A DNA stretch of 64,000 bases from Cyanobacteria bacterium FACHB-502 (GTDB lineage Bacteria > Cyanobacteriota > Cyanobacteriia > Elainellales > Elainellaceae). A model generated the notes under the pieces. That model searched no databases and was not told the DNA's origin. It worked only from the letters and a program-made list of their open reading frames with translations. Below, one piece after another: positions 52,125 to 64,000 of this stretch. Location: assembly GCA_014695325.1 (NCBI GenBank), contig JACJNZ010000039.1, positions 1 through 64,000 on the forward strand, read 5' to 3'. Both the position numbers and the translations under genes were made by a program. The stretch's first letter is position 1. The number at the start of each line of letters is the position of its first letter.

Positions 52125-52982
52125 CTAGATAGAGCGTTTCGCTGAGGTCGATCGCAGCTTGCGGATCACGATACCCTGCGTGGGGCTAAACAGCAGTGCC
52201 AGCAAAAATAGCGCGAACACAATCAGCGCGATCGTCGGACCCGAAGGCAAATCCAGAAAATAGCTGGTGTACATTCCCGAGACGCTGGCAAACACGCCGA
52301 TCGCCGCTCCAAGAATCATCATCCAGTGCAGCTCTTTCACCAACAAATAAGCGGTCGTTGCCGGACCGACCATCAGCGACACCACCAGAATCACACCAAC
52401 AATTCTCATTCCTGCAATCAGAGCCAGCGTGATACCTGCCATCATGCCTAGATTAATCCACTGCACAGGCAACCCAGACGCTTCTGCACCCACTCGATCA
52501 AACGTAAAAAACAATAGTTCTTTATAAAAAAGTTTGATACAAACGAGAATTACAAGGCTAATGATCGCAGTTCGCCCTACATCGCTCCAAGTGACACTTA
52601 AAATATCGCCGAATAGCAGATCAAGCAAATCTAACCGACTCTGAAATAGCGTCAGCAGCGTAATTCCCAAGCCAAAGAAACTGGCGAACGTAATTGCCAT
52701 CGCCGCGTCAACCGACACCCGCGACTGCGATCGAATCCAGGCAATCACAAAAGCACTCAAAATTCCAAAAATAAACGCACCGATCAGCATCTCAATGCCA
52801 ATAAATTGAGCGATCGCTAACCCCGGCAAAACCGCATGGGCAATTACGTCTCCTAGCAGTGCCATTCGCTGCACAATCAGATAGGAACCGACGATCGGAC
52901 AGAGAATGCCGACGAGAACGCTGATGACGATCGCGCAGCGCATGAAGTCGTAGTTTAGCGGTTCGAGCAGCAGGGAAAGCAT
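52125..52982 (-). CDS. znuB: Zinc/manganese ABC transporter permease, ZnuB-like
   Basis: 285 residues with about eight spans, ABC-3 family. It starts MLSLLLEPLNYDFMRCAIVI and contains VGSYLIVQRMALLGDVIAHA, VLPGLAIAQFIGIEMLIGA and GMMAGITLALIAGMRIVGVI, all family landmarks. It forms the channel for a metal importer with the ATPase at 53130-53876 and the binding protein at 53967-55076. It is downstream of the ATPase gene on the minus strand, 147 bases away. Zinc is preferred over manganese because of the His-rich binding protein and the Zur-like operator. Confidence 0.92.
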   Translation of the reverse strand: MLSLLLEPLNYDFMRCAIVISVLVGILCPIVGSYLIVQRMALLGDVIAHAVLPGLAIAQFIGIEMLIGAFIFGILSAFVIAWIRSQSRVSVDAAMAITFASFFGLGITLLTLFQSRLDLLDLLFGDILSVTWSDVGRTAIISLVILVCIKLFYKELLFFTFDRVGAEASGLPVQWINLGMMAGITLALIAGMRIVGVILVVSLMVGPATTAYLLVKELHWMMILGAAIGVFASVSGMYTSYFLDLPSGPTIALIVFALFLLALLFSPTQGIVIRKLRSTSAKRSI

Positions 52983-53129
52983 GGAGAGTGAATGGGGGGT
53001 AGCGTTTTATGATGCTTTTAGTGTGAGGGTCTCCTTTTAGATTAATCCGCGATCGCAAAAGCTCTACCACTTCTGACACGGTTTAGGTTTAGCAACGGTT
53101 CAGCCGTGATTTAGTCGTGATTCAGCAGT

Positions 53130-53876
53130 TCAACAGAAAAAGGGAACCTCCGATCGCCGTGACCGATCGCCCTGCAAATTTTCCCCGTAGGCGCGCTGGA
53201 TATTTTCGAGGGTCATGACTGCCTGGGGCTGGTCGTCTGCCAGAAGTCGCTGGTTGAGCAGCAGGAGGCGATCGTAGCGGTGCAGTGCATCTCCCCATTC
53301 GTGGCTGCAAATGAGCAGCATTTTGCCCTGCCGCTTTAGCTCGGTAAACACACGCAGCATAATTGCCTCTGTTTTTTTGTCAATCCCGGCGAAGGGTTCG
53401 TCTAGCAGGAAAATTTCGGCTTGCTGAGCCAGGGCACGCGCCAGAAATACGCGCTGCTGCTGTCCGCCGGAAAGTTCGCCGATCTGCCGATGCTTGAGAT
53501 GCAGCATATCCACCTGGGCCAGTGCTACCTCGGTCTGCCGCGCTGCCTGAGGAGCCGGACGACGAAACCAGCCTGTCGTTGCCGTATGTGCCATCATCAC
53601 CACATTCCAGGCAGTAATGGGATAGTCCCAGTCAATTTGCGATCGTTGCGGCACGTAAGCAACCTGGTTTCGCTGGCGACGAAGCGGCATTCCACCCAGC
53701 AGCACCCGTCCCGTTTGCAGAGGAACCAGTCCCAGAATCGCTTTGATCAGGGTACTTTTGCCCGCTCCATTCGGACCAATCAACCCCACTAATTCACCGG
53801 GAGCGAGCCTCATCGACACATCTTCCAGTGCTCCCGCTCCCCGGTAATTGACAGAAACTCGCTGCACCTCTAGCAT
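53130..53876 (-). CDS. znuC: Zinc/manganese ABC transporter ATPase, ZnuC-like
   Basis: 248 residues. LVGLIGPNGAGKSTLIKAIL (Walker A), VAYVPQRSQIDWDYPITAWN (Q-loop region typical of Mn/Zn importers), ELSGGQQQRVFLARALAQQA (signature), IFLLDEPFAGIDKKTEAIML (Walker B) and LICSHEWGDALHRYDRLLLL (switch region, H-loop SHEW rather than the usual SHD). It is cytoplasmic and energises ZnuB. It starts 90 bases from the divergent znuA, with a Zur-like box between them. Confidence 0.93.
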   Translation of the reverse strand: MLEVQRVSVNYRGAGALEDVSMRLAPGELVGLIGPNGAGKSTLIKAILGLVPLQTGRVLLGGMPLRRQRNQVAYVPQRSQIDWDYPITAWNVVMMAHTATTGWFRRPAPQAARQTEVALAQVDMLHLKHRQIGELSGGQQQRVFLARALAQQAEIFLLDEPFAGIDKKTEAIMLRVFTELKRQGKMLLICSHEWGDALHRYDRLLLLNQRLLADDQPQAVMTLENIQRAYGENLQGDRSRRSEVPFFC

Positions 53877-53892
53877 GACAAGTAAAAGATTA

Positions 53893-53907
53893 TGAGAATC
53901 ATTTTCA
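53893..53907. promoter_or_regulatory. Zur-like operator between znuC and znuA
   Basis: TGAGAATCATTTTCA is a 7-1-7 near-perfect dyad (TGAnAAT-n-ATTnTCA) of the form bound by cyanobacterial Zur, centred at 53900. It sits in the 90-base divergent gap, 17 bases from the znuC start and 60 bases from the znuA start, so one bound dimer could repress both directions. A ferric-uptake regulator could bind a similar sequence. Confidence 0.75.
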
Positions 53908-53966
53908 TTTTCACACCTGTCAACCAGAAGATCAACTGTCGTTTAAGGTAAACTGGAGGTTCAGAG

Positions 53967-55076
53967 ATGTCTGCTGATGCCCCACTGACTCAATCGCGAT
54001 CGAAGATTCCATGCAGGCAAAAGGCGCGAGCCGCTCGTGGGCTAATTGCGATGTGCTTCGCGGTCGGCTTTAGTGGATGCACTCCTGCGGCTCAGCAAGC
54101 TGAAACAAATCCTGCGGCTACCGCAAACTCTTCCTCGGCAGAGCGTCCTGCTGTGGTTGCCACAAGCAGCCTGCTCTGTGATCTGACTCGTCAAATTGCC
54201 CAAGAGACGATCGACCTTACCTGCCTGATGCGGCCCGATCAAGACCCACACGCCTACAAAGCCACACCTTCTGATCGACAGGCGATCGAAACTGCCGATC
54301 TGGTGCTGTACGGCGGCTACAGCTATGAGCCAGAGCTAATTCGCCTTGTGCAGGCAACGCAGACACCCGCCTCCAAAGTTGCCGTTTACGAAGCAGCCGT
54401 TCCCAATCCGCTGATGGCAGAGCCGCACGATCACGAAGAAGGTGAAGCACACGCCGAAGCAGATCATGACCACGAGCAAGGCGAAGTCCAAGCGCAAGCC
54501 GGAGAAGCCCAGGCTCCTGACCCCCACGTCTGGCACGATGCAACCAATGGCGTAAAGATTACTGAAGTTGTGCAAGACCAGCTCACTCAACTCATGCCCG
54601 ATCGCGCCAATGAGTTTGAGCAGAATACTGCTACGCTCACCGCAGAACTCTTGCAAATCAACGACTGGATCAAGGCTCAGGTCACAACAGTTCCCGATTC
54701 TGCTCGTCAGATTGTGACTCCTCACAATGGGTTTCAATACTTCGCAAAAGCGTATGGAATGACAATCAGGGGCGCGCTGGATGGCCTGAGTAGCGAGGAA
54801 AAACCTTCGCCTGCAAGATTGGCAGAGCTGGTCGATACAGTAAAGGAAAGCGGCGTGAAAACCATTTTCTCTGACACGACGACCAATCCTAATTTAATTC
54901 AGTCTGTCGCCCGCAGTGCCGAAGTGCAGGTTGCCGAACAGCCGCTTTTTATTGAGGGTTCTGGTGGTGAAGGAACTGCTGCGCCTACATACCAAGCCAT
55001 GCTGGTTGAAAATACCTGTACCGTCGTCAATGCGCTGGGGGGACAATGCGATAAATCCGCTTTACCCGATCGCTAA
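53967..55076 (+). CDS. znuA: Zinc ABC transporter substrate-binding protein, ZnuA-like
   Basis: 369 residues. A long N-terminus (about 25 residues) precedes a hydrophobic stretch ending GFSGC, a lipobox, so it is probably a lipoprotein. The cluster-A-I receptor shows VVATSSLLCDLTRQIAQETI, MRPDQDPHAYKATPSDRQAI (first metal His) and APDPHVWHDATNGVKITEVV (second His). Between them a His/Glu/Ala-rich loop (HDHEEGEAHAEADHDHEQGE) is the zinc-chelating flexible loop of ZnuA. The third His is in IVTPHNGFQYFAKAYG and the last ligand Asp in TIFSDTTTNPNL. Expression is probably zinc-repressed through the upstream operator. Confidence 0.94.
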   Translation: MSADAPLTQSRSKIPCRQKARAARGLIAMCFAVGFSGCTPAAQQAETNPAATANSSSAERPAVVATSSLLCDLTRQIAQETIDLTCLMRPDQDPHAYKATPSDRQAIETADLVLYGGYSYEPELIRLVQATQTPASKVAVYEAAVPNPLMAEPHDHEEGEAHAEADHDHEQGEVQAQAGEAQAPDPHVWHDATNGVKITEVVQDQLTQLMPDRANEFEQNTATLTAELLQINDWIKAQVTTVPDSARQIVTPHNGFQYFAKAYGMTIRGALDGLSSEEKPSPARLAELVDTVKESGVKTIFSDTTTNPNLIQSVARSAEVQVAEQPLFIEGSGGEGTAAPTYQAMLVENTCTVVNALGGQCDKSALPDR

Positions 55077-61456: not shown

Positions 61457-64000
61457 ATGCTGCAAGGTAAAACTTCCTCGGTTTTCACGCTGTCGCTGCT
61501 GTTGACGATCGCTGCCCCCACCTGGCTTCCGGCAGTCCTCTTCACGGATCCTATCCTGGCGCAGTCTGCCCCCACCTCGTTCCCTTTACTGGATTCAGTA
61601 CCGCGCGGTACGACGATTCGAGTAGACGGCTCGGACAGCATGGCAGGGATCAACCAGGCACTCAAGCAGAAATTCGAGGCGCAGTATGGCGGCACAGCGG
61701 TGAACCTTGCAACCGAGGGAACAGCAGCAGCCCTCAAGTCGGTTTTAGACGGAACGAGCGACCTGGCAGCGATCGGGCGACCCTTGACTCAAGCAGAAAA
61801 AGCGCAGGGACTTGTCGAAGTACCCATCACCCGCGAAAAAATTGCCATTATTGTCGGATCTAATAATCCGTTCCAGGGCAGTATTACCTTTGAGCAGTTC
61901 GCCCGCATCTTTCGCGGAGAAATCACCAATTGGTCACAGCTCGGCGGGGCACCCGGTAGAATCCGCTTCGTAGACCGACCCGACAGCAGCGACACTCGAC
62001 AGGCATTTCGCAACTACAAAGCGTTTCAGGGCGCACCGTTTAGGACAGGCAGCACTACCACTCAGGTCAGCCAGGATAGCACCACTGCAGTCATCGCCAG
62101 GTTAGGACGTGACGGCATTAGCTATGCGATCGCTAATCAGGTGGCAGATGAGCCAAGCGTGCGAATTTTACGAATGCATCGCACACTGCCCAACGACCCC
62201 CGCTATCCCTTCTCTCAACCGCAAAGCTACGTCTATAAAGGAACGCCCAGCGCGGCAGTTCAAAGCTTTCTGGGGTTTGCCACAGCTCCGATCGGTCAGA
62301 CGACGATCGATCAGGCAAAAACCACCGGTCAGGCAAAAACCGCAGAAGCAAAGGCAGTTGCAGCAACAGCCGGGGAAACGGCAACAACGGTAAATCCTGC
62401 ATCCAGCCTAGCCACTTCTGCAACGGCAATCGCCACCGCTTCGCCGGCCGCAGTCGTTCCTGTTACTGCTTCTTCAGGGGCAACAGGCACAGATCCAAAC
62501 ACCGCCGCAGGAACCACGGAAGCTGCCTCGCCAACCGCAACTAACCCAGACCCAGCCGCAGGAACCACAGGACCAGCCGCAGCCGATCCGGCAATCGCAA
62601 TCGCGAATCGTACCGGGGGTTTAGGTTGGCTGCTGCTTCCGCTCGCGCTCCTGGCTGGGCTGCTGTTGTGGCGATCGCGCCGCAGACCCTCGGAAGCTGC
62701 CGATCGTCCTGCCAATCCGGTGATTTCGCCTGTACCATCAGGGACAAGCACATCGAGCACAGGCACAACGCTGGCACAGCGCACGGGTTCCGTCGTCTCT
62801 GCCGATCGCCTGGAGCTCATGAACGATGCCCCTGGTGGAGCGGTTGCCCCTCGATCGGGGGAGGCTGCTGCTAAGACAGAAATCACAGCGATCGATCCTG
62901 AAATGGTGGAAGAAATTCCTTCAGCAGCGATCGATCCGGCGATTCCGAGTGCGGCGATCGATCCGGCTTTGTTAGGCGGGGCAGCTCTGGTAACAGGAAC
63001 GGGTGCGCTGTTTGGCTTGTCCGAGCTTCGCGATCAGTCAGAAAATGCCTCGGATGTGATCGAACTCAATCCCCTGGAAACTGAGCCTGCTTTGCCTGAA
63101 TCCACAGAAACGGCCTTGCCGGCCCAGGAAATGGCAGCCGAACTCGTAGCACTTCCATCACCTGAAGCAGTAGCGCAATTTCCAGAAGCTATCGTTGCCG
63201 AAGAGGAAATGGCAGCCGAACTGCTTGCAGAACGAGACGCCACAGAAGGGGCTGAAACAACGATCACCTCCCCGGTGTCGCCCAACCCCGCTGCCCCACC
63301 TGATGCAACAATTCCCGTAGCAGCCGCTACCGCCGGAATGTTTGTGGCTCAGTCGCGCCTAGCGATCGAAGAAACCCAGGAAGAAGAATTGCAGTCGACG
63401 ATCGAGGCAGCCAAGTTCTACATGGGGCAGCCTGACTTGTCGAGCGAAGAACTGGCAACCGTGGACGCAAATTTGCCTGATCTGCCCGGAGGCTATGGCG
63501 AAAGTCGGATTGTGCTGCTGCCCCGCGACCCGCAGTGGGCTTACGCCTATTGGGACATTCCGGCAGAGCAAAAGCAGTTAGCTCGACAACAGGGCGGCAG
63601 TCGATTTGCCCTTCGGTTCTACGATGTCACCAATATTGATTCCAATCGCCATAATCCGCATAGCCTTCAGCAGTACGAATGCGATGAAATGGCGCGAAAT
63701 TGGCACATTCCGGTTCCGCTAAGCGATCGAGACTATATCGCTGAAATTGGCTATGTCGCCGAAGACGAACGCTGGATGATGCTGGCGCGATCGCAGCCTA
63801 TTCGCATCCCACCTGTTTATCCATCGGACTGGTACTCCGAGCAGTTTCTCACGATCGATTGGCAGGCAGACCTGCGCGACAAAGCGTTCCTGGAGCTTGT
63901 GCCGCCGGGTGAACGCAAAACTTTTAACAACCCTATCTACGATCGCATCTTTGGCTTGACCGAATCTGCAGAGGCACAGCGCGTCGCCGGATCGCTCTAC
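61457..64000 (+). CDS. PstS-like domain / transmembrane / DUF4912 fusion (3' end outside window)
   Basis: An uninterrupted frame of 848 codons from ATG 61457 that leaves the window. Signal peptide (LQGKTSSVFTLSLLLTIAAP), then a phosphate-binding-protein-like domain: TIRVDGSDSMAGINQALKQK, TEGTAAALKSVLDGTSDLAA and ITFEQFARIFRGEITNWSQL. An Ala/Thr-rich linker, a membrane span (GGLGWLLLPLALLAGLLLW) and about 230 low-complexity acidic/Ala residues follow. Then DUF4912 begins: GESRIVLLPRDPQWAYAYWD and PSDWYSEQF. The PstS part may be a sensor or receptor rather than a transporter subunit, because the protein is anchored and no Pst permease gene is near. DUF4912 is a WH2/CBM-like domain of unknown role. 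Confidence 0.88.
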   Translation, partial: MLQGKTSSVFTLSLLLTIAAPTWLPAVLFTDPILAQSAPTSFPLLDSVPRGTTIRVDGSDSMAGINQALKQKFEAQYGGTAVNLATEGTAAALKSVLDGTSDLAAIGRPLTQAEKAQGLVEVPITREKIAIIVGSNNPFQGSITFEQFARIFRGEITNWSQLGGAPGRIRFVDRPDSSDTRQAFRNYKAFQGAPFRTGSTTTQVSQDSTTAVIARLGRDGISYAIANQVADEPSVRILRMHRTLPNDPRYPFSQPQSYVYKGTPSAAVQSFLGFATAPIGQTTIDQAKTTGQAKTAEAKAVAATAGETATTVNPASSLATSATAIATASPAAVVPVTASSGATGTDPNTAAGTTEAASPTATNPDPAAGTTGPAAADPAIAIANRTGGLGWLLLPLALLAGLLLWRSRRRPSEAADRPANPVISPVPSGTSTSSTGTTLAQRTGSVVSADRLELMNDAPGGAVAPRSGEAAAKTEITAIDPEMVEEIPSAAIDPAIPSAAIDPALLGGAALVTGTGALFGLSELRDQSENASDVIELNPLETEPALPESTETALPAQEMAAELVALPSPEAVAQFPEAIVAEEEMAAELLAERDATEGAETTITSPVSPNPAAPPDATIPVAAATAGMFVAQSRLAIEETQEEELQSTIEAAKFYMGQPDLSSEELATVDANLPDLPGGYGESRIVLLPRDPQWAYAYWDIPAEQKQLARQQGGSRFALRFYDVTNIDSNRHNPHSLQQYECDEMARNWHIPVPLSDRDYIAEIGYVAEDERWMMLARSQPIRIPPVYPSDWYSEQFLTIDWQADLRDKAFLELVPPGERKTFNNPIYDRIFGLTESAEAQRVAGSLY

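Follow-up and report, generated by a model that had tools for sequence, protein, structure and literature searches.

What can a protein do that joins a phosphate-binding-like domain on one side of a membrane to DUF4912 on the other? The question is raised by a frame near the end of the window, the whole stretch of 64,000 nucleotides analysed here, which forms the start of contig C34 in a genome of 6.6 Mb. The frame opens at 61457 on the forward strand and stays open to the window end, and when the rest is read from the genome sequence beyond the window the stop falls at C34:64684, giving a product of 1075 amino acids. A preliminary description of this DNA had seen a signal peptide, a PstS-like receptor, a span, a low-complexity linker and DUF4912 in one frame, and both Pfam and hydrophobicity confirm that order, with an Ala/Pro/Glu-rich linker in keeping with the description. 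The 3' end, which that description lacked, supplies residues 849-1075, consisting of Gly/Met-rich repeats and a highly conserved end of ~100 residues. The full order is signal peptide, PstS-like domain (PBP), span, linker, DUF4912, Gly/Met-rich repeats and conserved C-terminal domain, and the features lie as follows.

61457..61564, + strand: signal peptide, residues 1-36, hydrophobic core 9-27 (hydrophobic segment in the sequence)
61592..62326, + strand: PstS-like periplasmic binding domain, residues 46-290, with PBP_like_2 at 50-276 (Pfam E 8.6e-34)
61775..61780, + strand: G107-R108, at the place of the PstS Ser-Arg (alignments; contacts from PMC12421899)
61988..61999, + strand: S178-D179-T180-R181, at the place of the PstS SGT(R) motif (alignments; contacts from PMC12421899)
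62327..62611, + strand: Ala/Thr-rich stalk, fast-evolving, residues 291-385 (41% identity to the congener, pN 0.41)
62612..62668, + strand: transmembrane segment, residues 386-404, followed by RSRRR (hydrophobicity)
62669..63478, + strand: Ala/Pro/Glu-rich linker, fast-evolving, residues 405-674 (congener comparison)
63494..63838, + strand: DUF4912, residues 680-794 (Pfam E 7e-44; FN3-like fold predicted on a relative)
63839..64000, + strand: beginning of the C-terminal part, which continues past the window to C34:64684 (genome)
Residues 976-1075, + strand: conserved C-terminal domain of ~100 residues, common to the Rho_N-DUF4912 paralogue

The repeats (GMSGVGMSGAGMYTMSG) occupy G000:C34:64036-64381 (L003), residues about 860-975 of the product, P0001. 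They are found in some Rho_N-DUF4912 proteins too, vary greatly in length and are absent from the Nostoc-type proteins that we read. Both PBP_like_2 (PF12849) and DUF4912 (PF16258) exceed their Pfam cut-offs, the latter at 149.3 bits against a curated cut-off of 29.4. No lipobox was seen in the signal peptide, and Pfam finds no kinase, cyclase or other known signalling domain in the 1075 residues. Receptors with periplasmic-binding-protein sensor domains include the BvgS-type kinases, whose outline is alike, with a binding-protein head outside and an output inside; in contrast to these, the window receptor carries no known signalling domain.

The arrangement is neither a chance fusion nor an assembly error, as the order is identical in a congener (G001) and in many genera. 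The congener's gene shows identities of 79% for the PBP, 84% for DUF4912, 90% for the C-terminal domain and 41-57% for the linkers. The linkers change fast, but across the three domains nonsynonymous change falls far short of synonymous change, indicating purifying selection. DUF4912 itself is present in all 60 related genomes searched, at 1 to 10 copies each, and in most family members at least one copy takes the form PBP-TM-(1-3)xDUF4912, the C-terminal domain being present in some and absent in others. Surveyed more widely, PBP-TM-(1 to 6)xDUF4912 turns up in numerous filamentous cyanobacteria, among them Elainella, Stenomitos, Drouetiella, Phormidesmis, Nostoc, Calothrix, Fischerella and Scytonema. 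A scan of named genomes gave 80 loci in which 71 of 81 PBP frames bear DUF4912, in up to six copies, a fraction biased upwards because the set was ranked by likeness to fused PBPs. In an even draw from the class, the receptor PBP family was present in 185 of 287 good genomes, and the more distant members tested were mostly short, free-standing proteins. Outside the phylum, DUF4912 also occurs in Bacillus and Thermotoga. The window protein would thus belong to a family of single-pass inner-membrane receptors that is widespread in filamentous cyanobacteria, and within it to the DUF4912-CT type.

As to how these proteins sit in the membrane, the N-terminus carries a hydrophobic stretch in 112 of 113 receptors, and 100 of the 113 have an uncharged, Leu/Trp-rich segment that separates the head from the inner domain; in 77 of these 100, positive charge is greater behind this segment than in front of it. 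The DUF4912 paralogues have neither signal peptide nor span, which argues for a cytoplasmic DUF4912, and partners of the phosphorylase or Rho_N type are expected in the cytoplasm. We consider it very probable that the head lies outside, that there is a single span and that DUF4912 faces in. The weak point of this topology is a pair of lesser Ala/Gly hydrophobic stretches in the linker, near 503-522 and 619-637 (scores 1.53 and 1.33, against 1.94 for the span); these are probably not spans, and if they were, they could flip the side that DUF4912 faces. The anchored, sensor-like receptor with DUF4912 inside that was first proposed gains further support from other genomes, where the same PBP-TM head bears a (pseudo)glycogen phosphorylase or a coiled coil.

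What, then, would the head bind? Searched with a family profile, its nearest solved relative is Sll0540 of Synechocystis (9l8j, E 1.2e-75), which is named as a PstS homologue in the literature (PMC3610870, PMC11221513), and C. perfringens PstS (4q8r) matches at E 1.7e-30, the likeness to solved PstS-type proteins extending over ~240 residues. In a PstS with phosphate bound, residues that contact the ligand include a Ser that precedes an Arg and, in the SGT motif, the Gly and the Thr next to it; 4q8r adds an upstream Arg (PMC12421899); we transferred these positions to the receptors through our own alignments. In the window protein the contact Ser is replaced by G107, and the Gly whose backbone NH contacts phosphate is replaced by D179. 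In fact, among the anchored receptors, those bearing GlgP or DUF4912, an acidic residue, Asp or Glu, replaces the SGT Gly in 117 of 119 (9/9 of the GlgP-type, 51/52 DUF-CT, 18/18 DUF-AUX and 39/40 of other DUF types), and the contact Ser is Gly, changing SR to GR, in 113 of 119, whereas 24 of 29 short free-standing PBPs retain the SGT Gly. Four short PBPs have Asp (L116, L137, L193 and L078, the last truncated at the end of its contig), and in their other motifs they resemble the receptors. In a tree the acidic forms gather in one part (129 of 131 tips, at a node without support). The S[DE]T change so accompanies membrane anchoring, and the head, in our reading a descendant of a PstS-type binding protein, has lost the standard phosphate site. 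Although the head resembles Sll0540 and 4q8r in fold and sequence and keeps several of their contact residues, it differs in being anchored to a cytoplasmic domain, in its S[DE]T and GR motifs, and in having no transporter genes nearby.

These residues bear directly on whether the receptor is a true phosphate sensor, with a re-made pocket in which the new acid would accept a proton-bearing oxygen and from which phosphate supply would be reported to DUF4912. Such a reading fits the close relation of the head to PstS-type proteins and the fact that R174, R108, S59, S178 and T180 are largely kept; moreover, phosphate is used in glycogen phosphorolysis, and one PBP-pseudo-GlgP gene of the kind described below (L191, in G025) adjoins two PstS-like genes. 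However, the anchored receptors have changed at two contact positions that most free-standing relatives preserve, and against TIGR02136, the NCBI PstS subfamily, the window protein scores 97.6 bits, far below the cut-off of 206.6. The changes to S[DE]T and GR make the label of phosphate sensor, which the preliminary description had applied, doubtful and unsupported as it was stated; plain phosphate sensing we judge unlikely, and a sensor with a re-made pocket equally so. What the head senses is probably some other ligand in the periplasm, or else phosphate in an altered manner. It was right, on the other hand, that no Pst transport genes lie near: the sole PstA above cut-off is on a different contig, at C30:76 kb, beside a second permease match. 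Genes at 52125-55076 of the window read as a metal-type ABC transporter (permease, ATPase and His-rich binding protein), not one for phosphate. The genome holds one PBP of the receptor family, and tblastn of the window protein against plasmids returned ordinary PstS-type matches only. In one MAG (L116:9806-10960) a receptor-family PBP continues in a single frame into a BrnT toxin domain, which may be a recent recombination.

On the inner side, an AlphaFold prediction for the DUF4912-CT tail from Komarekiella models DUF4912 well and the C-terminal domain more weakly. Fold searches with DUF4912-CT gave FN3/Ig-type matches only (for DUF4912 against FN3, Z about 9 over ~95 residues; the CT model is weak), and profile searches of DUF4912-CT against PDB sequences gave nothing significant. 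The FN3-like fold so predicted is a common one and names no ligand. The window's genome has one other DUF4912 gene, P0002, a Rho_N-DUF4912-repeats protein of 507 residues with the same C-terminus and without signal peptide or span. Its DUF4912, Gly/Met-rich repeats and C-terminal domain are closely alike to those of the receptor, and Rho_N stands where the receptor has its signal peptide, PBP and span. Rho_N-DUF4912-CT is present in cyanobacteria generally; a divergent gene upstream of it (296 residues in L004) is kept in 13 of 22 loci (L204-L223).

Considering that Rho_N is the usual partner of DUF4912, the domain might instead act in RNA or DNA biology, with the receptor regulating gene expression and glycogen neighbours being secondary. 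Consistent with this, a search around the universal Rho_N-DUF4912 gene in photosynthetic genomes turned up no glycogen genes beside it and no GH57 homologue nearby. We think this reading very unlikely, as the window protein has no Rho_N and as adjacency to GH57 is total in the deep-branching classes, Rho_N-bearing proteins included. There, in the classes of Cyanobacteriota that we read as non-photosynthetic from the genomes' place outside the window's class, we read 13 DUF4912 loci, two of which end at a contig edge. At all 11 testable loci a GH57 gene directly follows the DUF4912 gene on the same strand, within ~90 bp or overlapping it. These GH57 proteins are 62-75% identical over their length to that of L290, and BE_C, the C-terminal domain of branching enzymes, is present in all six that were scanned (E 3e-42 or better); their best NCBIfam names are 1,4-alpha-glucan branching protein, at scores below the strict cut-offs. 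Some deep-branching DUF4912 proteins have both Rho_N and a C-terminal domain, which in one of them matches Glucodextran_B weakly, below cut-off (E 3.5e-4). DUF4912 had been put down as a domain of unknown function; the gene neighbours now narrow this to an association with alpha-glucan (glycogen), which we regard as likely.

A second, independent context comes from sister receptors in which the same head and span carry a different inner module. In Synechococcales cyanobacterium C42_A2020_086 (L083) a 1551-residue fusion of PBP, TM and glycogen phosphorylase (L083:4446-9101; Pfam Phosphorylase E 1.5e-286) lies upstream of a PBP-TM-3xDUF4912 gene, and of 42 genomes selected for a phosphorylase search, at least eleven contain long PBP-TM-GlgP fusions. 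Often the two receptor types share an operon-like row: PBP-TM-GlgP, a small gene and PBP-TM-2..3xDUF4912 follow one another on one strand with gaps under 265 bp in five genera (L083, L072, L064, L185 and L184). In G003, G008, G014, G176 and G234 the small gene encodes 131-151 residues and the DUF4912 receptor ends in a copy of its domain, and since this domain occurs both alone and fused, a joint function is signalled. The small partner ('AUX', 131 residues) belongs to no Pfam or NCBIfam family and has no firm fold match (best Z 6.4) and no significant match among PDB sequences by profile search. Two further fusions have other neighbours, L191 as mentioned and L189, which is followed by genes reading by eye as transaldolase and acetate kinase.

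Judged by their residues, the fused GlgPs are dead enzymes. All 11 that were aligned (10 distinct; one, L190, is truncated before the PBP) have Ile or Met in place of the PLP lysine of ASGTGNMKF, and Met, Asn or Ile in place of the phosphate-site lysine that comes first in KRIHEYKRQ, whereas both lysines are present in 8 of 8 canonical GlgPs taken from these genomes and their relatives. With the catalytic lysines lost, we reject an active fused phosphorylase. Nor are these decaying pseudogenes, given their intact long frames and pN/pS of 0.16-0.31 (0.16 in the closest pair), except for L184, where a stop interrupts the fused GlgP. They are best read, from these substitutions and rates, as pseudo-phosphorylases under purifying selection. 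Divergent GlgP-like proteins also stand alone (L231 at G003:C1:97392-99728, L263, L264, L265 and L266); that of L231 has likewise lost the PLP and phosphate-site lysines, and in L266 a split GlgP-like gene is divergent from a gene with two small-partner domains. In Hassallia byssoidea (L147, 4786-9423 and 9824-11896) a long protein with two small-partner domains and a very long coiled coil, perhaps a filament-forming relative, adjoins a PBP-TM-coiled-coil receptor.

A dead enzyme kept as a binding module could also suit a structural tether, in which the head would stay attached to a fixed partner in the periplasm, such as the cell wall, the outer membrane or a protein, while glycogen or another body is held by the inner domains and no signal is passed. 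The very long, fast-evolving linkers, the tandem copies of DUF4912 and the PBP-TM-coiled-coil relative of L147 speak for such a role. However, the ligand cleft is conserved (S59, R108, S178, T180 and R181), which a pure tether would not need, and we consider a tether improbable, less likely still than a phosphate sensor.

Taken together, these observations suggest a receptor family that would couple a periplasmic signal to glycogen at the membrane, with DUF4912 as a glycogen-associated FN3-like module, a scheme that we hold to have about an even chance of being right. The inner DUF4912 would bind alpha-glucan or glycogen, or dock partners on it, and when a ligand alters the head, the change would be relayed across the span, so that glycogen or its enzymes are recruited to the membrane or released from it; DUF4912 and the dead GlgP appear as inner modules as if serving one purpose. 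More tentatively, these proteins could form an undescribed class of transmembrane receptor, a repurposed phosphate-binding protein with glycogen-handling inner modules, that ties the glycogen store to a signal from the periplasm with neither kinases nor second messengers involved. Our searches of the open-access literature found no paper dealing with DUF4912 and, among work on pseudo-phosphorylases, PstS fusions, glycogen-granule proteomes and phosphate-glycogen links, nothing on a PBP-TM-DUF4912/GlgP system. If true, the glycogen role would give the core cyanobacterial gene DUF4912 its first testable function, and carbon storage would be regulated in a new way, by pseudo-phosphorylases attached to a membrane receptor. 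The S[DE]T signature distinguishes receptors from transporters among proteins now called PstS homologues.

At the window locus itself the link to glycogen comes through homology, because the genome has no PBP-GlgP fusion among its GlgP matches, no match to the small partner and no glycogen gene among the receptor's neighbours, which are a DUF2721-like protein, Trypco1 and an amidase. PADLOC models match neither the receptor, the small gene, the pseudo-GlgP fusion nor the Trypco1 neighbour, and an anti-phage defence system was rejected on this ground. The Trypco1 (CU044_2847 family) gene lies directly downstream of the receptor at G000:C34:64814-65323 (L003:4814-5323) and is kept, together with the amidase, in a few relatives.
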